A DNA stretch of 64,000 nt from contig NZ_SCRP01000002.1 in NCBI RefSeq assembly GCF_004298475.1, positions 354,062 through 418,061 on the forward strand, read 5' to 3'. This document shows positions 31,222-42,967 of the stretch, in pieces (position 1 is the first letter of the stretch; each line of letters starts with the position of its first letter). The notes below the pieces were generated by a model that worked only from the letters and a program-made list of their open reading frames with translations, made no database searches and was not told the DNA's origin. A program made the translations under genes and the position numbers. This DNA is from Paraburkholderia sp. GTDB taxonomy: Bacteria; Pseudomonadota; Gammaproteobacteria; Burkholderiales; Burkholderiaceae.

Positions 31222-31267
31222 AACGCAGCCATTCCATTTCCGATTCTTTATTAATCTGGAGATTCAA

Positions 31268-31345
31268 ATGAAAGAGCTTACCGCCTCTGAAATTTCTTCC
31301 GTCTCGGGTGCCGATGGTCTGGAGCGTGTTAGGCACTTTGGATAA
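31268..31345 (+). pseudogene. Truncated double-glycine-type leader peptide of a secreted peptide
   Basis: ATG 31268 with a GGAG Shine-Dalgarno encodes MKELTASEISSVSGADG, then LERVRHFG and a stop. The first 15 residues match the double-glycine leader pattern of bacteriocin and microcin precursors (MrELtxxEixxVSGG), with GA in place of GG. The codons after about residue 18 lie inside the end of an IS-like element (31322 onward), so the mature peptide has been replaced. Such leaders are cut by C39-peptidase ABC exporters; a wrecked exporter of that type lies at 40368-42967. Confidence 0.6.
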
Positions 31346-31938
31346 TAGGTGCGGCATGAACAAGCATAAGCATGGCGAAGACGACGAAGTGCAGGCCTGC
31401 GAGAGTTTCAGGCAGACGCTCGTAGTCGCGTGCCAGCCGCCTGAAGCGGTTCAGCCATCCGAAGCCGCGCTCGACCACCCAGCGGCGCGGCAGCAGCACA
31501 AAGCCTTTCTTCGCCTCGGGCAGTTTGATGACCTGCAATTGCATGCCTTCGTCGCGCGCGGCCTGCGCAGCCGTGTCACCCGTATTGCCCTGGTCAGCAA
31601 AGGCGAGTTTCACCGTCTGACCCGTGACGTGCTGAACTTGACGCGCAAGCTCGCCCACCTGCGCACGCTCCTGCTCGTTGGCAGGCGTAATGTGCACCGC
31701 GAGCAGCATGCCCAGCGTATCGACAGCCATATGAACCTTGCTGCCCCGCTTGCGCTTGTGGCCGTCATAGCCCGCGCGCGGTCCGCTTTCGCACGTGGAC
31801 TGCAACGTGCGTCCATCCAGAATCACTGCACTGGGCTGAGCCTGGCGTTCCTGCGCCACGCGCAGCACCGAACGCAAATCGTTGACCATCGCCTCGAAGC
31901 CAGGTTGCCAGGTTTCGCTGCAAATACCTAACACCCTC
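31322..31938 (-). mobile_element. Internally deleted IS5-like insertion element (617 bp)
   Basis: Bounded by near-perfect 12-bp inverted repeats GAGCGTGTTAGG (31322-31333) and CCTAACACCCTC (31927-31938). It contains a transposase gene missing its N-terminal part. No target duplication is apparent at the two outer junctions, which suggests an adjacent deletion. The right end touches the ribosome site of the next gene; the left end truncates the peptide gene. The exact subgroup was not determined. Confidence 0.8.
31329..31934 (-). pseudogene. IS5-family transposase, N-terminally truncated
   Basis: About 200 residues remain, opening at a GTG inside the terminal repeat. The DDE catalytic residues are still present (VILDGRTL, FADQGNTG, VVERGFGWLNRFRRLARDYE), and the C-terminus HAAPIIQSA reaches the far end of the element. 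Full-length relatives are about 270 residues, so roughly 70 N-terminal residues (DNA-binding part) are missing. Probably inactive, but mobilisable in trans since both ends remain. Confidence 0.82.
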
Positions 31939-31950
31939 TAGGAGAGTGCA

Positions 31951-32574
31951 ATGGCAAATATCCCTAGTGTCATCACTTATAAGCTACCTGAGTTCGCTGA
32001 GTTCCCGTCAAACATAGCGAAATGGAAAGTAGATACCAATAGGGCTGTCCTGTTGATACACGACATGCAAAAATATTTTATTCGATCATTTGATGATGAA
32101 ATTAAAATTAAATTGATCAAGAATATTTATTTAATAAAGAATTGGTGCATCGAAAATAATATACCTGTTGCCTACTCTGCTCAACCCGGAGGCATGAACG
32201 AGGAGCAGCGTGGATTATTAAAAGATTTCTGGGGCGCGGGCATGAAGATAGCCGCAGAAGATCGAGAGGTTATTGATGAAATCTCGCCAACATCAGAAGA
32301 TTGGCAATTTGAGAAATGGCGATACAGCGCATTTTATCGTTCAAATCTGCTTAAAAAAATAAAAGAAAACAAAAGAGATCAACTCTTAATAACTGGGGTG
32401 TATGCCCATATTGGAGTCTTGGCAACAGCAGTAGAATCTTTTACCAACGATCTTGAAACATTTGTGGTAGGGGATGCCATTGCAGATTTCTCCCATAGCC
32501 ATCATCGACTGACAATGGAATATGCCGCAGAACGTTGCGCCGTCGTAATCCCCACTCAGGATATTTTGTCATGA
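31951..32574 (+). CDS. phzD: PhzD-type isochorismatase (ADIC hydrolase)
   Basis: 207 residues, exactly the PhzD length. The catalytic residues fall at the PhzD positions: Asp38 in LIHDMQKYF and Lys122 in EKWRYSAF. The isochorismatase cysteine region reads GVYAHIGVLATA, with Val as in PhzD rather than the Cys of EntB-type enzymes. Expected reaction: 2-amino-2-desoxyisochorismate to trans-2,3-dihydro-3-hydroxyanthranilate plus pyruvate. AGGAG at 31940-31944 is separated from the IS end by one base. Codon use is AT-rich, unlike the flanks. Its stop overlaps phzE (ATGA). Confidence 0.92.
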   Translation: MANIPSVITYKLPEFAEFPSNIAKWKVDTNRAVLLIHDMQKYFIRSFDDEIKIKLIKNIYLIKNWCIENNIPVAYSAQPGGMNEEQRGLLKDFWGAGMKIAAEDREVIDEISPTSEDWQFEKWRYSAFYRSNLLKKIKENKRDQLLITGVYAHIGVLATAVESFTNDLETFVVGDAIADFSHSHHRLTMEYAAERCAVVIPTQDILS

Positions 32575-34544
32575 GCACGATAAATTCGTCTGCCACTATT
32601 AATACCAACGAATTTGCATCAATTTTCTCCCCTTCCCCAGAGCCATTTGCCATTCTATATCGACCAGAAAGCTCCCCCAATGAATCAGTGGATATATTCA
32701 CCTGCGATGTAAAAATCGCAGAAGAGATCGGTGAAATTACAATTAACAGAAATCGCAACACAAACGGAGATAACTTCTACTCCACTCTTGTACTAATTCC
32801 GTATAGACAAATCAAGGAGAGAGGGTTTGACTTTGTTGATGATCATACGCCTCTTGTTGTCATGGAAGTCAAAACTCAAACAAAACTACCTAAAAAACTT
32901 CTTGTTGAATATATTAATAACATCCCCATTACGCTAGACGAAGGACGCTACGACATAGACGATGATGAATATGGGAAGATAGCCAGATCGATTATTACTG
33001 AGGAAATCAGGAAAGGCGCTGGCGCCAACTTTGTATTAAAAAGATCTTACATATCAAAAATTAATGGCTACGACATTCAAAAGGCCCTCTCAATTTACAA
33101 GAATGTGCTAGAGCGGGAGATGGGAGCATATTGGATTTTTATTGTCTATACCGGCGATATGACTTTAATAGGAGCAACTCCAGAACGGCATGTAAGCCTG
33201 TCCGAAAGGAAGATAACGATGAATCCCATCAGTGGGACATACCGTTATCCGAAAACCGGCCCCTCAGTTAGAGGGCTGCTGGACTTTCTGGAGGACAATA
33301 AGGAAGTAGAAGAACTTTACATGGTAGTAGATGAAGAGTTGAAGATGATGTCTCGAATTTGTGACGCAGAACCAACTCTCACGGGGCCGTATATAAAAGA
33401 AATGACAAAATTAGCCCATACGGAATATCTCATCGAGGGAACAACTTTTCTGAGCCCACAAAAAATAATTAAAGAAGCACTTTTCGCCCCCACTATTACA
33501 GGCAGCCCCCTGGAGAACGCCTTTCGCGTAATAAAAAAATACGAGCCAAATGGAAGAGGATATTATGGAGGGGTAATCTCGCTATTCGGCTCAGATAAAA
33601 ATGGACTTGATTACATCGACTCATCAATATTAATTAGAACAGCGCAAATTGATACTTCCGGCGAGCTTAAGATAAGCGTAGGATCAACTTTGATTAGAAG
33701 TTCCAACCCCATAACGGAGGCTTTTGAAACCACAACAAAGGCCGCAGGATTATTGTCGGCAATAAAACAAGCACAGAACGAAAATAACTCAAACAGCCCT
33801 ACCTTCAATAGGATTAATTTTCACGAACTACCAGAGGTCCAGAACTCACTAAAGTCGCGCAACAGTTTTATATCGAATTTCTGGCAAAAAGAATTCAAGC
33901 AAAAGCATCGATATGTTAGCTCCCTTCAAGGGCTGAAAACGTTAATAGTTGATGCAGAGGATACGTTTACGTCCATGCTATTCCACCTTATTCGAGCACT
34001 TGGGCTGAATGTTGTGGTGGCTAAACATGACGAACACTACAGTGTTAAAAATTTTGATGTTATTGTACTTGGCCCGGGGCCAGGAAACCCAGAGAACAAG
34101 AGTGACATTCGGATTATCAATATTGAAAAAACAATAAAAAATGTCATTCTCGAAGGAATTCCATTTTTGGCTATTTGCCTGAGCCACCAAATACTTTGCT
34201 CGCATCTTGGGATCAATATCTCCCTAAACGAATCACCCAGCCAAGGACTACAGAAAGAGATCGACCTGTTTGGCGATAAAGAGCGCGTAGGATTTTACAA
34301 CTCCTATACTGGAATATCCACAGCAAATAAATACTCGATGGATCGGCTGGGATTAATTGAAATATCCAGGGATGAAATCACAAATGAAGTACATGCCGTA
34401 AGAGGAGAAACGTTTTCATCAATGCAATTTCATCCCGAATCCATCTTGACTCAAAATGGAGTTGATATTCTAGAAAAAAGACTCGTCGAAATTTTTTCAA
34501 AGAAAAATAAAAACACCCTTAGACCGGCGTTAGCCTCCCAATAA
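32571..34544 (+). CDS. phzE: PhzE-type 2-amino-2-desoxyisochorismate synthase
   Basis: 657 residues from ATG 32571, overlapping the phzD stop; PhzE proteins are about 630. The N-terminal chorismate-utilising domain (about 120-415) contains PISGTYRYP, VDEELKMMSRICD, GSPLENAFRVI and YYGGVISLFG. The C-terminal glutamine amidotransferase domain (about 455-645) contains GPGPGNPE, the Cys nucleophile in AICLSHQ, the PhzE-like DLFGDKERVGFYNSY, and His/Glu in QFHPES. Makes ADIC from chorismate and glutamine. The single-chain order and the DLFG segment fit PhzE rather than TrpEG. AT-rich. Confidence 0.92.
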   Translation: MSTINSSATINTNEFASIFSPSPEPFAILYRPESSPNESVDIFTCDVKIAEEIGEITINRNRNTNGDNFYSTLVLIPYRQIKERGFDFVDDHTPLVVMEVKTQTKLPKKLLVEYINNIPITLDEGRYDIDDDEYGKIARSIITEEIRKGAGANFVLKRSYISKINGYDIQKALSIYKNVLEREMGAYWIFIVYTGDMTLIGATPERHVSLSERKITMNPISGTYRYPKTGPSVRGLLDFLEDNKEVEELYMVVDEELKMMSRICDAEPTLTGPYIKEMTKLAHTEYLIEGTTFLSPQKIIKEALFAPTITGSPLENAFRVIKKYEPNGRGYYGGVISLFGSDKNGLDYIDSSILIRTAQIDTSGELKISVGSTLIRSSNPITEAFETTTKAAGLLSAIKQAQNENNSNSPTFNRINFHELPEVQNSLKSRNSFISNFWQKEFKQKHRYVSSLQGLKTLIVDAEDTFTSMLFHLIRALGLNVVVAKHDEHYSVKNFDVIVLGPGPGNPENKSDIRIINIEKTIKNVILEGIPFLAICLSHQILCSHLGINISLNESPSQGLQKEIDLFGDKERVGFYNSYTGISTANKYSMDRLGLIEISRDEITNEVHAVRGETFSSMQFHPESILTQNGVDILEKRLVEIFSKKNKNTLRPALASQ

Positions 34545-34562
34545 TTAATCAAAAGGACGGAC

Positions 34563-36032
34563 ATGAATCAGATAATATCTGCAGAGCACAAAGCAGATAG
34601 TAGAGCCTGGCTTGGACTCACGGTCGTTTTAAGCCTGGTTTTGCTGGTTGCCATGGATGGCTCTGTGTTGTACCTGGCAATGCCAAAAGTTGCCGCATCA
34701 CTACAACCAACGGCCGACCAGGCATTATGGATATTAGATATATACGGATTCATTGTGGGATCGTTATTAGTGGCTTTCGGAAATATCGGAGACCATTACG
34801 GCAGACTCAAGTTGCTAGTCGCAGGATCATTAACATTTGGACTGGGTTCAACTCTTGCGGCATATTCAACGTCGGCAGAAATGCTAATCATATCGCGGGC
34901 TATCATGGGGCTCGGTGGTGCAACACTATTACCCTCTGGGCTTGCTATTGTAAGTAACCTATTTTTAAATCCTCGACAACGTGCACAGGCAATAGGGATT
35001 TTTGCGGCCACATTTGCCGGAGGATTCGCAATTGGTCCAATTATAGGAGGTACTTTACTAAGCAGGTACGATTGGGGAGTGGTTTTTTTAATTAATATAC
35101 CAGTTATTTTTTTATTTCTTTTAGGAGCCTGGAAACTGCTTAAAGACGTTAAGCAAGAAAATTATGGGAAAATCGATCTATTGAGTTTAGCGCTTTCTTT
35201 TGCTGGAATTTTATCTTTTATATATTCATTGAAGCATGGTGCCGCAGAAGGAATATCACTGAGCCAGATTGCCATCGGGCTTTTTGGCGCGGTTACTTTA
35301 TCTTGGTTCATAAGACGCCAAAAATACATAAAGCACCCCTTGCTTGATCTTTCTTTATTTAAAGATCGAATTTTTTTAATTGCGATCGGCACCGGATTAT
35401 TGTCCTTAGTGGTATGGGCAGCATCGGGCTATTTAACGGCAACATATCTACAATCAGTTCTCGGATATGATGTATTAACCGCCGCATTCCTGGCCATACC
35501 TGGAGCATTAGTTCTGACCGCGACTTGTATTTGGACCAACGAAATTGTTGAGAGAGTTGGCAGGAAGAACGCGCTTATTATGACGCATATTCTAATAAGT
35601 CTTGGCGTTCTTATATTGCTTTGGACTACTACGGATAACGGTGTTGCCGCATTCATCGCCTCAACGATGATTGCTGGGGTTGGATATGGCCTTTCCTTTA
35701 GCTTAGTTGCAGAGATAGCAGTTTCTGCAGTTCCCAAAGAAAGAGCTGGAGCCGCAGCCTCTTTGGCAGAGACTAGCAATGAAATAGGAAATGCCCTTGG
35801 TATTTCTATACTGGGATCGTTGGCTGCTTTTCATTTTAGGATATATGGCCCAGATATTGCCGGCACATTTAATGAAACTCTTATCAAAGCTGCGCAGTCA
35901 GCGGAGATCATTGATGAAGCCAGAAAAACATTCGTCGATGGCATGCATATAGCCCTCGGGGTAGGCGGAAGCATCACGCTGGCATTAGCGATTTTGGCGA
36001 TATTTTGGTTGCCCAAGAAACTTCCTGAATAA
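34563..36032 (+). CDS. MFS exporter, DHA2 (14-TM) family
   Basis: 489 residues with about 14 hydrophobic helices. Start region VAMDGSVLYLAMPKVAASLQ and the motif A-like GNIGDHYGRLKLLV place it in the EmrB/QacA/SmvA-like drug exporters. The AAGGAC Shine-Dalgarno starts 11 nt before the ATG and the gene lies 18 bp after phzE. Co-directional within the phz/CAR cluster, so the likely role is export of, and self-protection from, the cluster product. AT-rich. Confidence 0.9.
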   Translation: MNQIISAEHKADSRAWLGLTVVLSLVLLVAMDGSVLYLAMPKVAASLQPTADQALWILDIYGFIVGSLLVAFGNIGDHYGRLKLLVAGSLTFGLGSTLAAYSTSAEMLIISRAIMGLGGATLLPSGLAIVSNLFLNPRQRAQAIGIFAATFAGGFAIGPIIGGTLLSRYDWGVVFLINIPVIFLFLLGAWKLLKDVKQENYGKIDLLSLALSFAGILSFIYSLKHGAAEGISLSQIAIGLFGAVTLSWFIRRQKYIKHPLLDLSLFKDRIFLIAIGTGLLSLVVWAASGYLTATYLQSVLGYDVLTAAFLAIPGALVLTATCIWTNEIVERVGRKNALIMTHILISLGVLILLWTTTDNGVAAFIASTMIAGVGYGLSFSLVAEIAVSAVPKERAGAAASLAETSNEIGNALGISILGSLAAFHFRIYGPDIAGTFNETLIKAAQSAEIIDEARKTFVDGMHIALGVGGSITLALAILAIFWLPKKLPE

Positions 36033-36064
36033 ACCATCTTAACAATAGCCTAAATGGTTTTAAT

Positions 36065-37828
36065 ATGCGCCTAGCTCGAATTGTCTCTCAAGTAATGCAA
36101 AAGAATACAAACCGCCCTGCTATTGGAGAGCGTGAAGTAAAATATATCACAGATAAAAAAACAGGTCAGGTTCGCATAGAACTGCTAAATAGCTATAGGA
36201 CAATTACGTTTGGCCAAATGTGGGCCAAAGCGGAGGCAATTGCAAATAATTGGTATCGCAGCAGTCACTCTATTCTGAGGGATGGAGATCGAGTCGCAAT
36301 AATTTCGTTTACTAGTGGCGACTACGCCACTATAGATCTCGCTTGCATTCGTCTCGGCGCGGTATCAATACATTTGCAGGCGAATTCATCTCATGAACAA
36401 TTAAAATTAATAATTGAAGAGACTAGCCCAAAGATAATTGCTGCGAGCATCGAATATTTAGAAACTGCGGTAAGTCTTGCAAAATCAATCGATTCAATCA
36501 GTCAAATTGTTGTCTTTGACTATCATCACAATGTTGATGAGCACTCGGCCGTTTTAAAAAAATTTAGTGATGAATTGATTGACTCAGATAGAAAGATCTT
36601 CATTGAATCATTAAGTGAGATCATTCAGGCCGGTGAAAAAATGCCTGCTGCGCCATTCCCGGACGATGCGGAAAATAACGATCCGCTATCTATGCTTATT
36701 TACACGTCTGGTAGCACTGGTTCCCCCAAGGGAGCTATGTATACAGAAAAATTAGCATCTGGTATGTGGGGAGGTTCTTGGTCAAAAATCTTTTCGGATG
36801 AGATTGCAATCACCATTCACTATATGCCAATGAGCCATGTGGCTGGGCATTCATCCCTCAAGAATACTCTTGCACGAGGGGGGTGTAGTTATTTTACATC
36901 CAGGAGCAACTTATCTAGTTTTTTTGAAGATATCTCTTTAATACGACCAACAGAGCTATCGTTGGTACCTCGCGTCTGTGAATTGATTTATCAGAGATAC
37001 AATAGCGAATTACTTAAAAGAAAAGCTACCGAAAAAAACGATATTGATGTAGAAGAGAATCTAATGAAAGAGTTTAGATTTAAACTCTTGGGCGGACGAG
37101 TTGCCTGGGCTGGATGTGCATCTGCTCCGCTTTCCAAATATCTGTCGGACTTCATTGAGTCTGTTCTGGGAATAGAGCTTCATAGTATTTACGGATCTAC
37201 TGAGGCCGGCGTTGTCTGGATGGATAATAAATTAATGAAGCCCCCAGTAATTGATTATAAAATAATTGATGTTCCTGAACTAGGATATTTGACGTCCGAT
37301 AAGCCATATTCAAGGGGTGAGTTGTTATTAAAAACTGAGTCAATAATACCGGGCTACTACAAAAGGCCGGAGCTAAATGCTGAAATATTTGATGATGAGG
37401 GATATTACATAACTGGAGACATAGTTAAGGAGGTCAGTGATGGGAATCTTTATTTTGTGGATAGACGTCGTAACGTTGTCAAGCTTTCCCAAGGTGAATT
37501 TATCGCCACAGCTAATCTGGAAACAATTTATGGAGCTAGCCCGCTGATTAAGGATATTTTTATTTACGCCAACAGCGAATGGTCGTCTCCCTTGGCGGTA
37601 ATTGTGCCCACTTCCGATGTATTGAAACAACATAATGAAAAAGAATCTTTCGTCAAAAGATTAATACGAGATTCTTTGCGAGAAATAGCAAAGAAATCTG
37701 CCCTTAAAAGCTATGAAATTCCAAGAGATTTTTTGATAGAGAAAATTCCTTTTGTCTTGAATGGTTTGTTATCTGACCACGGCAAGCCGATTTGGCCAAA
37801 ACTGCGCTCACACTATATTGATCATTAA
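36065..37828 (+). CDS. Carboxylic acid reductase, adenylation (A) domain part
   Basis: 587 residues, an AMP-forming adenylation domain of the CAR/long-chain acyl-CoA ligase type: MLIYTSGSTGSPKGAMYTE (P-loop), YGSTEAGVVW, GYYKRPE, YYITGDIV, DRRRNVVKLSQGEF, and the C-terminal SYEIPRDFLIEKIPF. The last residues PKLRSHYIDH match the stretch where CAR proteins run on into the carrier domain, but TAA intervenes at 37826. The following frame continues the CAR homology, so the gene appears split by a one-base shift. Ribosome site weak. Expected to activate an aryl or cyclohexadienyl carboxylate as acyl-AMP. Confidence 0.88.
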   Translation: MRLARIVSQVMQKNTNRPAIGEREVKYITDKKTGQVRIELLNSYRTITFGQMWAKAEAIANNWYRSSHSILRDGDRVAIISFTSGDYATIDLACIRLGAVSIHLQANSSHEQLKLIIEETSPKIIAASIEYLETAVSLAKSIDSISQIVVFDYHHNVDEHSAVLKKFSDELIDSDRKIFIESLSEIIQAGEKMPAAPFPDDAENNDPLSMLIYTSGSTGSPKGAMYTEKLASGMWGGSWSKIFSDEIAITIHYMPMSHVAGHSSLKNTLARGGCSYFTSRSNLSSFFEDISLIRPTELSLVPRVCELIYQRYNSELLKRKATEKNDIDVEENLMKEFRFKLLGGRVAWAGCASAPLSKYLSDFIESVLGIELHSIYGSTEAGVVWMDNKLMKPPVIDYKIIDVPELGYLTSDKPYSRGELLLKTESIIPGYYKRPELNAEIFDDEGYYITGDIVKEVSDGNLYFVDRRRNVVKLSQGEFIATANLETIYGASPLIKDIFIYANSEWSSPLAVIVPTSDVLKQHNEKESFVKRLIRDSLREIAKKSALKSYEIPRDFLIEKIPFVLNGLLSDHGKPIWPKLRSHYIDH

Positions 37829-37917
37829 CTCGTCTTTATGAAAGCTCCCTCAATAAAGAAGCGGAGACATTACTTGATATATATAAAAATGGAGAAGAGC
37901 AGAGCGCACTTGATACG

Positions 37918-39492
37918 TTGATGCGTCTTGCACAAGGACTGGTTGGAGAAGTAGATGCAGGTGAGATTTCTCCAGATCTCTCTTTCCGAGAAATCGGCGG
38001 CGATTCTTTGTCGGCGGTACATTTTTCCCTTACTATTGAAGATATATTTGATGTAAGGCTGCCGATAGATGTTTTAATTAGCCCCGCTTATGATTTAGCG
38101 CATATCGCAAAATATATAGATGCCAAACGCAATCGAGAGACTGCTAGACCAGGATTTAGCCTAATTCATGGGGCAGCACCAACAGTAATATATGCCAACC
38201 AGTTAAAACTGGATAGATTTTTAGGCGAGAAATTTAGAGATGGTGCCGCGACAGTTCAAAGTGCTGGAAAAAAAACAAAGGTACTTTTGACAGGTGCTAG
38301 TGGATATCTTGGGAGGTTTTTGTGCTTGAGGCTAATGGAGGAATTGAGCAAAACTGGGGGCGAATTAATATGCATTGTTAGAGCCAAGGACGACGAGTCT
38401 GCTAGACGACGTCTTGAAGAGTCATTTGGAACAGCCGATAGTACGCTGACTTCAAAGTATAAATCGCTTGCTAATGAATATTTGCATGTTATGGCCGGAG
38501 ACATTGCAGAGAGCAAGCTTGGATTGTCCGAAGAAAGCTGGGGTTATTTGGCCGCCGAAGTTGATGCGGTATTTCATGTTGGAGCTTTGGTTAATCATGT
38601 TTTACCGTATAAGGATATGTTTGAGGCCAACGTTGTCGGTACCGCAGAGCTTATAAGTCTCGCCCTTAATACGAAAATTAAACGTTTTACTTTTATGTCT
38701 AGTATTGCTGTTGCTGCTCCTTCAGATAAAGATCCAGCATTGGATGAATATTCGGATATCAGGCAGAGTTTAGCGTATCAGAATATTGATAACTCATATG
38801 CAAATGGTTATTCGCTAAGCAAATGGGCAGGAGAAATCCTACTTCGTGAAGCTCATGAGCTTTACGGTTTACCAGTGACTGTCTTCAGGTCTAGCATGAT
38901 TCTGGCTCACCGTGAGTACAGAGGGCAGATTAATGTACCTGATATGTTTTCCCGTTTACTTTATAGCATAATAAATGCCAGGTCCGCCCCCCTCTCCTTT
39001 TATAAAAAAAGCAGCGATGCACCGCGACCGCATTATGATGGATTGCCGGTTGATTTTACTTCAACCGCTATTATTAATCTATCAAATGAAAATTCAAATA
39101 AATATATAACGTACAATTTGGTTAACCCCCATGATGATGGCATTTCTCTTGATACAATTGTGGATTGGCTCCAAACCTTTGGCTTTGATATCAAACGTAC
39201 GGAGCAGTATAACGAGTGGATTGGCGGATTTGAGTCTTCCCTGAAACAATTTCCCGACAGTCTTAAGGTTCACTCCTTTTTACCTCTTATTGATTCAATC
39301 CAGGAACCTCAGAATGCGGTCTCGGGATCTGTTATTCCGTCTGATCGATTCAGGGAGGCAATGAAACGACAAGGGGGCGAGGTAGAGGATTCATTCATTC
39401 CCCGCATAACAAAATCTCTTATCTGGAAATATATTTTGGATTTCAAGGAATTAGGGCTGTTTGTGGATGATATTCCCGTGAAGCAAGAATAA
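37918..39492 (+). CDS. Carboxylic acid reductase, carrier and reductase (T-R) part
   Basis: 524 residues from TTG 37918 (an ATG follows at 37921). Carrier domain with phosphopantetheine Ser in GGDSLS (about residues 28-33), then a thioester reductase domain (NAD-binding 4): LLTGASGYLGRF near 124 and YANGYSLSKWAGE with the catalytic Tyr/Lys. The frame is open back to 37822 and encodes CAR-like linker (LTRLYESSLNKEAETLLDIY). Together with the A gene the total is about 1,140 residues, the size of a normal CAR. It needs a phosphopantetheinyl transferase from elsewhere. GGAGAAGAG at 37891 is far from either start. Confidence 0.85.
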   Translation: MMRLAQGLVGEVDAGEISPDLSFREIGGDSLSAVHFSLTIEDIFDVRLPIDVLISPAYDLAHIAKYIDAKRNRETARPGFSLIHGAAPTVIYANQLKLDRFLGEKFRDGAATVQSAGKKTKVLLTGASGYLGRFLCLRLMEELSKTGGELICIVRAKDDESARRRLEESFGTADSTLTSKYKSLANEYLHVMAGDIAESKLGLSEESWGYLAAEVDAVFHVGALVNHVLPYKDMFEANVVGTAELISLALNTKIKRFTFMSSIAVAAPSDKDPALDEYSDIRQSLAYQNIDNSYANGYSLSKWAGEILLREAHELYGLPVTVFRSSMILAHREYRGQINVPDMFSRLLYSIINARSAPLSFYKKSSDAPRPHYDGLPVDFTSTAIINLSNENSNKYITYNLVNPHDDGISLDTIVDWLQTFGFDIKRTEQYNEWIGGFESSLKQFPDSLKVHSFLPLIDSIQEPQNAVSGSVIPSDRFREAMKRQGGEVEDSFIPRITKSLIWKYILDFKELGLFVDDIPVKQE

Positions 39493-39504: not shown

Positions 39505-39963
39505 ATGGGAATTCGGCACCTTCGTTGTTTTCTCGCAGTTGCTGAAGAACTTCATTTCGCGCGTGCAGCGGAGAAACGGCATATCGGGCAATCCCCGCTG
39601 TCACGCACGATTAAGGAATTGGAAGAGGATTTGGGCGAACAACTATTTGTTCGCACCAGCCGCAGTACTCAGCTGACGCGAGCAGGCAAGCTGTTTCTGG
39701 AACACGTGCCGCGCGTATTCACCGCGTTGCAGCAGGCACGCGACAGCTTGAAAGCGGCGGCCAGTGGCTTCCAGGGCCAATTGCGGCTCATTCACCGCAT
39801 CGCGACTAACCCCGGGATCACGCTCGCTGACGTAGTGGTTCAACTTCCCGGCCTGGATTCGCACAAGCTACGCCAACTCGTCACTGAACTCTGCCGTCAG
39901 GACATCCTGGAATTAACCCATCAGCAACGGGATATAGCAACGCCCGAATCTGCATATCTATAG
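39505..39963 (+). pseudogene. Chimeric LysR-type regulator remnant
   Basis: Residues 1-93 are a normal LysR DNA-binding half (RHLRCFLAVAEELHFARAAE, LSRTIKELEEDLGEQLFVRT, ending FQGQLR). Then, instead of the effector domain, ~60 unrelated residues follow (IHRIATNPGITLADVVVQLP, KLRQLVTELCRQDILELT), resembling a winged-helix piece of unknown origin. Base composition returns to GC-rich here. A GGAG Shine-Dalgarno precedes the ATG. It could still bind DNA but cannot respond to an inducer. Confidence 0.7.
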
Positions 39964-39965
39964 TC

Positions 39966-40334
39966 ATGCTAATCCCATACGTATTTGTGCTCACGTGGCT
40001 CATTCCAGAAACCAAGGGCCTTTCAAAAAGCGAAATCGCGTCCCTGGTGGAATCCGCGAGGCTGTCATCCATCCCTCGAATCAAAAAATACTCTGGATAC
40101 GCTTTTGTTGTTTCAATGTTTTTACCCATAATTTTATTTACCTCTGCATTCGTAAAACTGGGGATCATCCCGGGTGAAATGTCTTTCATTTTTCCTTTGC
40201 GGATAGCAATGCTTTCGATGCTTTCGATAATTTCAAGCTATTTTTTGAAGTCATTATTCAACACCCTTATCTTCAAACCCGCCATCTATGAGCAGTTGCA
40301 CAAGCAACCACATCCCCCAAGACCATCCGCATAA
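39966..40334 (+). CDS. Hypothetical membrane protein, possibly chimeric (122 aa)
   Basis: Two or three hydrophobic helices (VVSMFLPIILFTSAFVKLGI; LRIAMLSMLSIISSYFL). The first ~20 residues (VFVLTWLIPETKGLSKSEI) look like the C-terminal end of an MFS sugar porter (PETKG motif), so the ORF may be a fusion of fragments. No family is recognised for the rest. It starts 3 bp after the LysR remnant, without a Shine-Dalgarno. An immunity or transport-accessory role is conceivable from context but unproven. Confidence 0.4.
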   Translation: MLIPYVFVLTWLIPETKGLSKSEIASLVESARLSSIPRIKKYSGYAFVVSMFLPIILFTSAFVKLGIIPGEMSFIFPLRIAMLSMLSIISSYFLKSLFNTLIFKPAIYEQLHKQPHPPRPSA

Positions 40335-40367: not shown

Positions 40368-41528
40368 TTGATGGCCCCACTATTTCGCCCCGAAGCCCTT
40401 CAGGGATCCCGCACACGTACACTCGGAGAAATCGTGCTGGTGCGGCCCGTGTCCTTCACGCTTCTAACGGCCACGGCAGTATGCATGGCGATGTCCGTTA
40501 TCTTGTTCTTCGTCTTCGGCACTTACACGCGCCGCACAACGGTTAATGGGGTGATCATGCCCGATTCCGGGCTCGTCAAAGTCTACGCTCAACAATCAGG
40601 CATTCTGAACAAGCGCGAAGTCGTCGAAGGCCAGCGCGTGACGCGCGGTCAGGCGCTCTACACGCTTTCGACTGATTTACAAAGCTCGGTTGGCGGCCTG
40701 ACCCAGGCGGCGCTCATCGCGCAGACGCTTCAGAGCAAGGCATCGCTCGAACAGGAGATGAACAAGACGAAGCTCTTGCAGCGCGATGAGCACAATACGC
40801 TACGAACGAAGATCGACAGCCTGCGCGCCACACTCGGTCGAATCGACGAACAGCTTGCCGCGCAGCGGATCCGCACGTCCATCGCTGCTGACGGCACGAT
40901 TACGCCTGGCGAATCAGTTGCGATCGTCGGGCCGTCGGGTTGCGGTAAAACCACCCTTGTCAACGTTCTGCTCGGCGCACTCGAACCGACCAGTGGCGTG
41001 ATTCGTATCGGCGGCATCGAACTCGGCCGGCTTGGCCTCGAACGGCTGCGCACGCTCATTGGCGCTGTGATGCAGGACGACGTGCTGTTCGCCGGATCGA
41101 TCGCCCAGAACATCAGTTTCTTCGATCCGGATGCTGATTCGCAGTGGATAGCCGAATGCGCGCGGCTCGCCGCCGTGCACGACGATATCGCCGCGATGCC
41201 GATGGGCTACAACACACTGGTCGGTGACATGGGAACCGTGTTGTCGGGAGGGCAGAAGCAACGCGTGTTGCTCGCACAAGCGCTCTATAGGCGACCGAAA
41301 ATCCTCGTGCTCGACGAGGCGACGAGTCACCTCGATCTGCAGCGGGAACAACACGTGAATGCGGCCGTCAGCAAACTGAAAATGACGCGCATCATCGTTG
41401 CGCACCGTCCCGAAACGATCGCGTCAGCATCGCGTGTCGTGATGCTCGACGGCGGCAAGGTGGTGTTCGATCGGCAATCGGCAATTGAGCACCGCGCACA
41501 CCCGGCAGCGGAGTCATTGCCGCGATGA
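40368..41528 (+). pseudogene. In-frame fusion of HlyD adaptor N-terminus and peptide-exporter ABC ATPase
   Basis: Residues 1 to about 177 are the start of an HlyD/RaxA-type membrane fusion protein: cytoplasmic segment LFRPEAL, one membrane helix VSFTLLTATAVCMAMSVILF, lipoyl-like start, and coiled coil. From about residue 178 (TITPGESVAIVGPSGCGKTT) it is the nucleotide-binding domain of a CvaB/RaxB-type bacteriocin exporter, with LSGGQKQRVLLAQAL and ILVLDEATSHLD. The rest of HlyD, the C39 peptidase and the exporter's membrane domain are absent, implying a deletion of roughly 2 kb. Cannot work as a type I secretion pump. Overlaps the TolC gene (ATGA). Confidence 0.85.
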
Positions 41529-42967
41529 AATGTCAATGTCGCATAGTCCGCAGTGTGTCTTTCGCCCTGCTCGCACTTGTACCAGCGGCGCCGGCTCAGG
41601 CGTTCGACATTTTCCGAACCGGCGATACCTCATCGGCCACGCCTGCCGCACCGCTGTTGAGCAACGCGTCGTGCGTATCCGAACCCGTCGACCGCCCACT
41701 GGCGTTGGAAGACACGCTTCTCCAGGCGATCTGTTCGCATCCTCAAGCGCGGCAAGCATGGGCGAACGCGCGCGCGCAGGCCGCGGCCGTCGGCATCGCC
41801 AAGGCCGCATACCTGCCAACGCTGAATGCCACGGCGGGCATCGATCGTGACACGCGTTCGACGACCTACGACTATGGCGCGACCGGACTTGGCTCGCAGG
41901 GCAGATCGCAGCGATCCTCCACCCAATATGGAATCTTGAACTTGAGTTGGGTGTTATTCGACTTTGGGAAACGCAGTGCTGATTTGCGGCAAGCACGCGA
42001 ACTGCTCGCTGCTGCCAACGCGGTGCAGGACGACACGCTGCAGGCGGTGTTCTTCAGCACGGCGCGGGCGTACTACGCCGTGCGCGACGCACATGCGTCC
42101 GTTGATGCCGCATGGCAGACGGAACGGATCGCCGACGAGAGCCTGGCCGCTGCACGCGCAAAGCACGATGCAGGAGCCGGCACGCTGAGCGACCGGCTGC
42201 AGGCGCAAACAACCTACCGCCGTGCAGTACTCGACCGCGTCAGCGCCGAGGGCGACGCGCGCACGGCGATAGGCGAACTCGCCGTGTCGATGGGACGCGA
42301 CGCGAATACGCCGGTGCAGATCATCGCGGCAGACTCGGTGCCCGATGAAAATGCCGTCGCCGCAGGCGTCGATGCGCTGATCGACGAAGCAAAAATGCGC
42401 CAGCCGAAACTCGCTGCTGCCCGCGCGAGGCTCGCGGCCGCTCGTGCAAACGTCGAGGCAGTGCGCGCGCAGAGCCGGCCGACGATTTCGATGACTGGCA
42501 GCCTCACGCAGAACAACCCTTCAACTCGACAGCAAGCCGATTCGTTTTCGATCTCACGCAGCCGTAGCAGCAAGATCGGCGTTCAACTGACGATCCCATT
42601 GTTCGAGGGCTTTGCATCCGGTTATCGCTTCGCCCATGCGCAGTCCCTGGCCGACGCGCAGGAAGCGGATCTGCACAATACCGAGCTACAGGTATCACTC
42701 GACGTCTGGCGGAGTTATCAAGCGCTGCAGGCTGATGCAATCAACCTGACAACCTCGAGAGACCTGCTTGATGATGCGCAGCGCTCACTAGAAATCGCAC
42801 GCGGACGTTACAAGGAAGGTGTGGGGACATTCATCGAATTGCTGAATGCCCAAACGGCGCTCGCCGATGCCCAGAAGCAGCGCGTGTTGGCGGTATCGAA
42901 GTGGAGAACTGCGCGGCTCAGTCTGGCTGCAAGCCTCGGAAAACTGGGTCTGTGGACAATGGATTAA
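41525..42967 (+). CDS. TolC-family outer membrane efflux protein
   Basis: 480 residues with a signal peptide (FALLALVPAAPAQA) and two repeated outer-membrane-efflux domains of long amphipathic helices, typical of TolC/RaxC. Its ATG overlaps the stop of the HlyD/ABC fusion, so it is the outer-membrane partner of a one-time type I peptide-secretion operon. It appears intact and could still pair with other pumps. GC-rich, like the genome. Confidence 0.9.
   Translation: MKCQCRIVRSVSFALLALVPAAPAQAFDIFRTGDTSSATPAAPLLSNASCVSEPVDRPLALEDTLLQAICSHPQARQAWANARAQAAAVGIAKAAYLPTLNATAGIDRDTRSTTYDYGATGLGSQGRSQRSSTQYGILNLSWVLFDFGKRSADLRQARELLAAANAVQDDTLQAVFFSTARAYYAVRDAHASVDAAWQTERIADESLAAARAKHDAGAGTLSDRLQAQTTYRRAVLDRVSAEGDARTAIGELAVSMGRDANTPVQIIAADSVPDENAVAAGVDALIDEAKMRQPKLAAARARLAAARANVEAVRAQSRPTISMTGSLTQNNPSTRQQADSFSISRSRSSKIGVQLTIPLFEGFASGYRFAHAQSLADAQEADLHNTELQVSLDVWRSYQALQADAINLTTSRDLLDDAQRSLEIARGRYKEGVGTFIELLNAQTALADAQKQRVLAVSKWRTARLSLAASLGKLGLWTMD

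Follow-up and report, generated by a model that had tools for sequence, protein, structure and literature searches.

The window analyzed here is a 64,000-nucleotide stretch from the genome of a Paraburkholderia sp. (assembly GCF_004298475.1, contig NZ_SCRP01000002.1; 4.25 Mb, 38 contigs, completeness 99.98), termed G000, and contains a 7.5-kb island on the plus strand encoding homologs of the phenazine enzymes PhzD and PhzE, an exporter of the major facilitator superfamily (MFS) and a carboxylic acid reductase (CAR). This gene set is a real, recurrent biosynthetic cassette and a variant of the chorismate/trans-2,3-dihydro-3-hydroxyanthranilate (DHHA) pathway, not a new kind of system. We consider it reasonably probable that the cassette is a compact, horizontally spread operon, which would divert chorismate to a reactive amino-aldehyde by CAR-dependent reduction of DHHA, followed by export. 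Since the combination is found again in unrelated bacteria, its product is probably a small aldehyde that has not been described. The GC content of the island is 0.412, versus 0.635 elsewhere in the window, in line with an earlier reading of this DNA from its sequence alone (the sequence-only reading), which had pointed out four co-directional, AT-rich functions in a GC-rich genome. The same operon is present at the same place, with an intact CAR gene, in a congener termed G114.

The nearest solved chains to the window PhzD are 3r77 ('probable isochorismatase', E 3.4e-78) and 1nf9 (PhzD, E 6e-78). The residues D38 and K122 are present, and the motif GVYAHIGV matches GVYAHVGV of 1nf9, at a position where EntB carries a Cys; these residues agree with the earlier placement of Asp38 and Lys122 at the family positions and the lack of an EntB-type Cys. 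The phzE start codon ATG (32571) overlaps the phzD stop. PhzE has as its nearest solved chain 3r74 (E 1.8e-170 over 7-646, the next match reaching only 4.1e-24), which is named 'Anthranilate/para-aminobenzoate synthases component I' in the database and which we take to be a PhzE. The glutamine amidotransferase motifs GPGPG, CLSHQ, and HPES are present, and PF00425 and PF00117 are found in one frame, as expected from the earlier description of a single-chain enzyme with its own amidotransferase. On architecture, residues and nearest structure, PhzE and PhzD are predicted enzymes of the phenazine type. For the MFS protein, the best models are LfrA, QepA, SmvA, and EmrB, every one under its cut-off, and a plain hydropathy count, which is a simple method, gave 13 peaks where 14 transmembrane segments had been noted earlier.

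The CAR of G114 is encoded in a single frame of 1142 amino acids, with a score of 1395.8 bits against an NCBI equivalog cut-off of 1300. Alignment with this intact gene revealed that one base is missing in the window between the adenylation (A) part and the carrier and reductase (T-R) part, so that no single A-T-R chain reaches the cut-off, the two parts scoring 743 and 658 bits, respectively. Since the intact G114 gene scores above the cut-off, the family assignment is right and the window copy is damaged. The sequence-only reading of a CAR with A, T, and R parts thus held for the parts, all of which were matched, and not for their continuity, the frame being broken by the one-base deletion with a stop at 37828; that reading had omitted both the division of this gene and the insertion at 31235-31935 described below. 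The window CAR resembles the solved CARs 6oz1, 5msc, 5msp, and 5mso, which settles its fold, and shares with these characterized enzymes the A-T-R architecture and the catalytic residues. Its parts contain the motifs PMSH (His), LSQGE (Glu), GGDS (carrier Ser), and YSLSK (Tyr and Lys), and the corresponding residues are also found in the aligned CAR sequences; the essential residues of CARs are given in PMC5826065 as His (PxxH), Glu, the carrier Ser, and Tyr and Lys of YxxxK.

Recurrence of the gene set and absence of phenazine genes

Five gene pieces compared between G000 and G114 are 90-96% identical, with dN/dS of 0.08-0.23 (for phzD, 96% and 0.08), and three flanking genes gave 0 to 0.07; by this comparison, the genes are under selection and have long been present in the genus. 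Within the genus sample, CAR was detected in 5 of 144 genomes including G000 (E 1e-30) and PhzE in 3 of 144 (E 1e-60), with G000 and G114 as the only genomes that have both. In genome G063, phzE adjoins phzF and phzB. The other CARs of the genus (G111, G022, and G075; 41-42% identity) occur in genomes with no PhzE at E 1e-60 and precede a zinc alcohol dehydrogenase (L008 and L010, by Pfam; L009, by tblastn). The family sample contained CAR in 2 of 398 genomes, G000 and G111 (the latter of the 41% kind), G114 not being among the matches listed, and the class sample in 1 of 369, which is G000 alone. Plasmid-borne relatives were sought in PLSDB and rejected, as 33 PhzE records and 23 CAR-like records (E 1e-40) have no accession in common.

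Outside the genus, genome contigs were scanned for PhzE and the best 80 of at least 595 stretches were taken, some of them ended by contig ends, so that the counts of recurrence are lower bounds. A full CAR (>1000 bits) was present in the flanks of three of these 80 loci, from Pseudomonas sp. Irchel s3h17 (L024), a Magnetospira metagenome-assembled genome (MAG; L041), and Saccharothrix carnea (L053), and none of the three gave a PhzF, PhzB or PhzG match. The Pseudomonas and Magnetospira loci have the order of the window, phzD-phzE-MFS-CAR, with an MFS protein 64-66% identical to that of G114; the best MFS match in the other 78 of the 80 loci is 162 bits. A second genome from the genus Pseudomonas (G993) carries the same four genes in the same order (2 of 398 in the genus sample, one being the query's own). 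The clustering of the four genes is far from chance, because the same order recurs in G114, two Pseudomonas and the Magnetospira MAG. Three Pseudonocardiaceae loci (L053, L150, and L151) contain phzD-phzE-CAR, one of them with a homologous MFS gene: L151, whose CAR is 66% identical to that of Saccharothrix, encodes an MFS protein 58% identical to that of G114 together with a class II 3-deoxy-D-arabino-heptulosonate-7-phosphate (DAHP) synthase. In total, MFS homologs 58-69% identical to the G114 copy adjoin phzDE-CAR in L118, L024, L041, and L151, and the NCBI equivalog cut-off is exceeded by the CARs of G114, Irchel, Magnetospira, Saccharothrix, and L151. The search for genomes with phzD, phzE, and CAR without phzF, which the sequence-only reading had proposed, was thus answered by two Pseudomonas, the Magnetospira MAG and three Pseudonocardiaceae, as far as the stretches read around their clusters are concerned.

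Within the 20-22 kb read of each, the two Pseudomonas loci are alike at the DNA level only over a gene pair for a TetR regulator and a flavodoxin-fold oxidoreductase, a second tetR, phzD-phzE-MFS-CAR, and a class I DAHP synthase gene. The flavodoxin-fold oxidoreductase adjoins these two clusters only, while the second TetR also adjoins the Magnetospira cluster (68%). This second TetR has no match in G000 or G114 at 1e-8, an empty answer that alone proves little. A DAHP synthase gene adjoins the cluster in both Pseudomonas (class I) and in the three Pseudonocardiaceae (class II), which ties the CAR to chorismate supply. In an order-level sample near Magnetospira, CAR was found in 2 of 248 genomes, one being the query's own, and the other (G1487, 47%) has no phzDE within the 19.9 kb read. 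The loci L053 (19167-21809) and L150 (7589-9509) contain a small methyltransferase gene followed by an S-adenosylmethionine (SAM) synthetase-like gene, the latter recognized by eye, and L053 also an adenosine-kinase-like gene (by eye). The methyltransferase and SAM synthetase genes suggest a methylated product in the Saccharothrix-type loci.

An ordinary phenazine cluster with phzF, phzB, and phzG elsewhere in the genome would account for PhzD and PhzE of the phenazine type, and PhzF-family genes are present in three of the five genomes examined (G114, Irchel, and Saccharothrix). The best members of these three, however, align along most of the sequence with two phenazine PhzFs at 26-30% identity (that of G114 also 45% over 74 residues), whereas four PhzFs that adjoin phzDE give 47-58%. 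The PhzF family has no match in the genome of the window, with a control positive in 11 of 14, and none in the Magnetospira MAG. No PhzF, PhzB or PhzG match was obtained by tblastn at 1e-5 in the 64-kb window or in eight cluster stretches from seven genomes (L006, L007, L024, L041, L118, L053, L150, and L151), the search for PhzG being confined to these stretches and the window. A genome-wide search with PF03284 (PhzA/B) was empty in all five genomes and is uninformative, the control being likewise empty. We regard such a cluster as very improbable, and for the genome of the window it is rejected as far as the assembly goes, with no PhzF in the genome and no PhzB or PhzG in the window, as the sequence-only reading had concluded. 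Clusters of the phenazine type, in which phzB, D, E, and F are accompanied by a phzG-like gene, were seen on an Escherichia coli plasmid (NZ_CP076707.1; L017, 5135-17162) and on a Xenorhabdus plasmid (NZ_CP147735.1; L019, 7769-13506).

Reductase phylogeny and adenylation-domain signature

Five phz-linked CARs fall on one side of a branch with 100/100 support in a tree of 14 CARs. In a larger tree of 43 rows, seven phz-linked CARs and four others from Pseudonocardiaceae (L152-L155) form an 11-row group (SH-aLRT 100) versus 32 others. A PhzE tree constructed by a quick method (87 rows) groups five proteobacterial sequences (SH-aLRT 99), all five being among ten rows flagged for unusual letter make-up.

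The string V259 A260 H262 S263 K266 W348 (G114 numbering) in the A domain is present in all seven phz-linked CARs and in none of the 36 other rows, 13 of which are without flanks read for phzDE. It was carried by each of the first five phz-linked CARs; five of its positions closely follow the catalytic His, and the sixth precedes motif A5. By motif position, we take these sites to correspond to those that line the acyl pocket in adenylation enzymes. The characterized CARs 5msc, 5msp, and 6oz1 differ here, having (by eye) R262, F/M/M266, and V/T/N348, where the phz-linked CARs have H, K, and W. In the Saccharothrix family sample, CAR was detected in 42 of 200 genomes (E 1e-100), and 2 of 29 new loci carry the exact string. 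The 20-kb flanks of the 16 best-scoring of these 29 loci, picked before the string carriers were known, contain phzD and phzE in both string-bearing loci, whereas none of the 14 that lack it has them.

The CARs of L152-L155 lack the string, so that, if the weak branch joining them to the actinobacterial phz-linked CARs (see below) is right, the string tracks phzDE and not the tree. All four are encoded near a class II DAHP synthase gene and a PhzE-like match of 25-27%. In the two loci scanned, L153 and L154, a fused PabA-PabB type aminodeoxychorismate synthase was detected above the TIGR00553 cut-off, and in L152 and L155 this enzyme was detected by tblastn only. These neighbors tie the four CARs, too, to a chorismate-derived amino acid, and from gene content the loci are predicted to represent a second type of chorismate-plus-CAR cluster. 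Besides the CAR, DAHP synthase and aminodeoxychorismate synthase, L154 (90-11457) encodes a NodU-type carbamoyltransferase and a P450. A more distant single-chain CAR is encoded on a plasmid of Streptomyces sp. Mut1 (NZ_CP120998.1; L113, 2518-11381) beside genes that, from their annotations, we take to be for 3-amino-4-hydroxybenzoate (3,4-AHBA) synthesis; it possibly replaces GriC/GriD of grixazone synthesis.

State of the locus in the window

Starting at xylB and continuing across the cluster, the window is colinear with G114, and the sole break is the insertion directly upstream of phzD (Table 1); the blastn colinearity breaks at 31234 and 31936 both fall on one G114 position. The regulator gene downstream of the CAR is a remnant, and its counterpart in G114, read by eye, is also broken and stops early.

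Table 1. Features of the phzDE-CAR island and its borders in the window
Feature	Position	Strand	Evidence or remark
Insertion, 701 bp, absent from G114	31235..31935		Directly upstream of phzD; blastn colinearity break
Truncated IS5-family transposase inside insertion	31329-31934	-	NF033580
phzD, isochorismatase-fold hydrolase, predicted ADIC to DHHA	31951..32574	+	3r77, 1nf9; D38, K122
phzE, single-chain predicted ADIC synthase (chorismate-binding + glutamine amidotransferase)	32571..34544	+	3r74; PF00425 + PF00117
DHA2-type MFS exporter (predicted)	34563..36032	+	PF07690 1e-49; LfrA/QepA/SmvA/EmrB models
CAR adenylation (A) part, premature stop at end	36065..37828	+	NF041592 positions 32-612, 743 bits
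CAR T-R part (carrier and reductase) in the shifted frame; first listed start at 37918	37828..39492	+	NF041592 617-1159, 658 bits; TIGR01746
LysR regulator remnant, N-terminal HTH only	39505..39960	+	PF00126
ADIC, 2-amino-2-deoxyisochorismate; HTH, helix-turn-helix.

Because its CAR is frameshifted and an insertion was gained at the operon head, the operon copy in this genome is probably decaying, being non-functional or failing, while G114, Pseudomonas and others hold copies that appear intact. It is rather likely that the window harbors a dead transferred operon without present function, a reading that would not conflict with the pathway proposed below for intact copies. The CAR frameshift, the insertion between the upstream region and phzD, and the LysR remnant all point in this direction. 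On the other side, phzD, phzE, and the MFS gene are open and 90-96% identical to those of G114 with dN/dS of 0.08-0.18, although these values cover the time before any damage, and sequencing or assembly error is possible in a single draft assembly. The divided CAR may also still work: GriC (AMP-binding) and GriD (reducing) are a CAR working as two separate proteins (PMC10179220), and a split CAR is thus not necessarily dead. Their division probably lies at the same place as the split of the window CAR. Phosphopantetheinyl transferase (PPTase)-family genes (L020-L023) number one in G000 and three in G114, one of the latter below the cut-off.

A short open reading frame (ORF) within the insertion (31268-31345) resembles a bacteriocin leader by eye (MKELTASEISSVSGADG...). 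Downstream of the island, at 40368-42967, an ORF combines an N-terminus weakly resembling HlyD with the C-terminus of an ABC ATPase, and a TolC-type gene follows it. Together, these genes look like the remains of a broken locus for microcin export. The ORF at 39966-40331 encodes a membrane-protein-like product of 122 amino acids with no match in Pfam, NCBIfam or PHROGs.

Proposed pathway, alternatives and significance

The chemistry of PhzE, PhzD, and CAR is established for their families. In the proposed pathway, PhzE would convert chorismate to ADIC, and PhzD would convert ADIC to DHHA. The CAR would adenylate DHHA, load it onto its own carrier domain and, with NADPH, release 6-amino-5-hydroxycyclohexa-1,3-diene-1-carbaldehyde (C7H9NO2). 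The DHA2-type exporter would remove this aldehyde or its spontaneous derivatives, which may be imine oligomers or, after elimination of water or of ammonia, 2-aminobenzaldehyde or 3-hydroxybenzaldehyde, respectively. We infer that DHHA is the CAR substrate, that the aldehyde is the end point and that the product is active. As a tentative and more specific proposal, which we hold to be possible, the product would represent a minimal natural-product class not described so far: three enzymatic steps would turn chorismate into a non-aromatic cyclohexadienyl amino-aldehyde, which would be released unmodified. The cassette phzD-phzE-(exporter)-CAR would in this case be self-contained and have spread between Actinomycetota and three Pseudomonadota classes, with CARs that have a dedicated substrate pocket.

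The known DHHA routes outside phenazines were considered as an alternative. According to PMC5958127 and PMC5698749, the limazepine and tilivalline routes proceed, by proposal, via 3-hydroxyanthranilate, formed from DHHA by a dehydrogenase (Lim4, DhbX). By analogy, a host dehydrogenase would oxidize DHHA to 3-hydroxyanthranilic acid, and the CAR would make 2-amino-3-hydroxybenzaldehyde, coupling oxidatively to phenoxazinone pigments. This scheme has a parallel in grixazone synthesis, where GriC/GriD reduce an aminohydroxybenzoate (PMC10179220) and 3-amino-4-hydroxybenzaldehyde couples oxidatively, and in the single-chain CAR of the Streptomyces plasmid if its putative 3,4-AHBA genes are rightly assigned. 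The known routes, however, carry their own dehydrogenase, and no match to short-chain dehydrogenases/reductases (SDR) or zinc alcohol dehydrogenases (ADH) was found in seven cluster loci or in the window at 25-47 kb (tblastn, 1e-4), using three SDR and two ADH queries that match one another in control loci, Lim4 and DhbX not being among the queries and one ADH query having a non-native N-terminal stretch. Likewise, there is no phenoxazinone synthase among the families in the conserved block of Pseudomonas. We therefore consider this alternative unlikely. As neither PhzF nor an SDR or ADH was found, direct reduction of DHHA to the aldehyde is favored as the enzymatic end. DHHA as the CAR substrate is strengthened by the lack of an SDR-type dehydrogenase in the seven loci and by the signature linked to phzDE.

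Alternatively, the CAR could act on another acid (fatty or benzoic) and merely neighbor phzDE, with DHHA itself being exported. CARs are promiscuous, and PMC8361184 describes Streptomyces broth as the first source of isolated DHHA and states that its build-up in a phzF mutant barely affected growth. Against this, the linkage is kept across Pseudomonadota and Actinomycetota, and the phz-linked CARs form a supported group with the closest other CARs, which are also chorismate-linked. An unconnected CAR appears to us a quite improbable explanation.

Several observations weigh against the proposed pathway. The CAR in the window's own genome is divided by the frameshift, and this genome shows one PPTase-family gene, AcpS-like by eye, where an enzyme to charge the CAR would be needed. 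In the 43-row tree, the phz-linked CARs are no clade, since the actinobacterial ones join L152-L155 (SH-aLRT 87, on a short branch and by a quick method), and the Saccharothrix PhzE sits among other actinobacteria, outside the proteobacterial five, so the histories of PhzE and CAR differ in actinobacteria. In the flank test, the CAR of L150 is 90% identical to that of Saccharothrix, which leaves L151 (66%) as the single independent success, and two of the 14 negatives, L158 and L159, are almost the same sequence. Of the six signature positions, K266 alone is missing in all 36 other rows; H262, W348, and the rest are present in some. CARs being promiscuous, the signature may not report the substrate, and according to PMC5826065 no specificity code was deducible from the CAR positions examined there. 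A dehydrogenase elsewhere could first make 3-hydroxyanthranilate, and the flavodoxin-fold oxidoreductase of the Pseudomonas clusters could act on the product. On balance, the sequence-only proposal that the CAR reduces DHHA to a product that is then exported gains from the recurrent and selected phzDE-CAR set; the CAR is frameshifted in this genome, and DHHA as its substrate stays a prediction.

Compared with known systems, the cassette shares with the phenazine core (phzABCDEFG) PhzE, PhzD, the DHHA intermediate and, in several clusters, supply by DAHP synthase, but no PhzF, PhzA/B or PhzG was found beside its genes and a CAR stands in their place. The limazepine/tilivalline/benzoxazole route (Lim3-6; AroX/AdsX/IcmX/DhbX) likewise has PhzE/PhzD homologs outside phenazines and a DAHP synthase. 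There, DHHA is described as being oxidized to 3-hydroxyanthranilate for assembly, which in limazepine and tilivalline is by a nonribosomal peptide synthetase, whereas the search of the present clusters yielded no dehydrogenase of this kind, and reduction of the acid would fall to the CAR. Grixazone GriC/GriD similarly reduce an aminobenzoate-type acid to an aldehyde in secondary metabolism, but the acid is formed via 3,4-AHBA and not chorismate, the CAR consists of two proteins, and a phenoxazinone synthase is present. Oryzoxymycin, a small DHHA-derived antibiotic, shares the DHHA scaffold, but is an ester of the acid and not an aldehyde. In searches of the open literature, with subscription papers and MIBiG outside this scope, no title or abstract start among the papers listed showed a phzDE-CAR cluster, consistent with the earlier statement that no product is described for this gene set. 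The cassette is thus apparently undescribed, and its novelty is provisional.

If the proposed pathway is true, direct reduction to a reactive aldehyde would add a third outcome at the DHHA branch point, besides phenazines and 3-hydroxyanthranilate products. Consisting of three enzymes and an exporter, the pathway can be rebuilt in a laboratory strain, and its product can be identified directly. To our knowledge, the natural substrates of CARs, which are valued biocatalysts, are mostly unknown; the phz-linked enzymes would constitute a group of CARs with a predicted native substrate and with residues to test.

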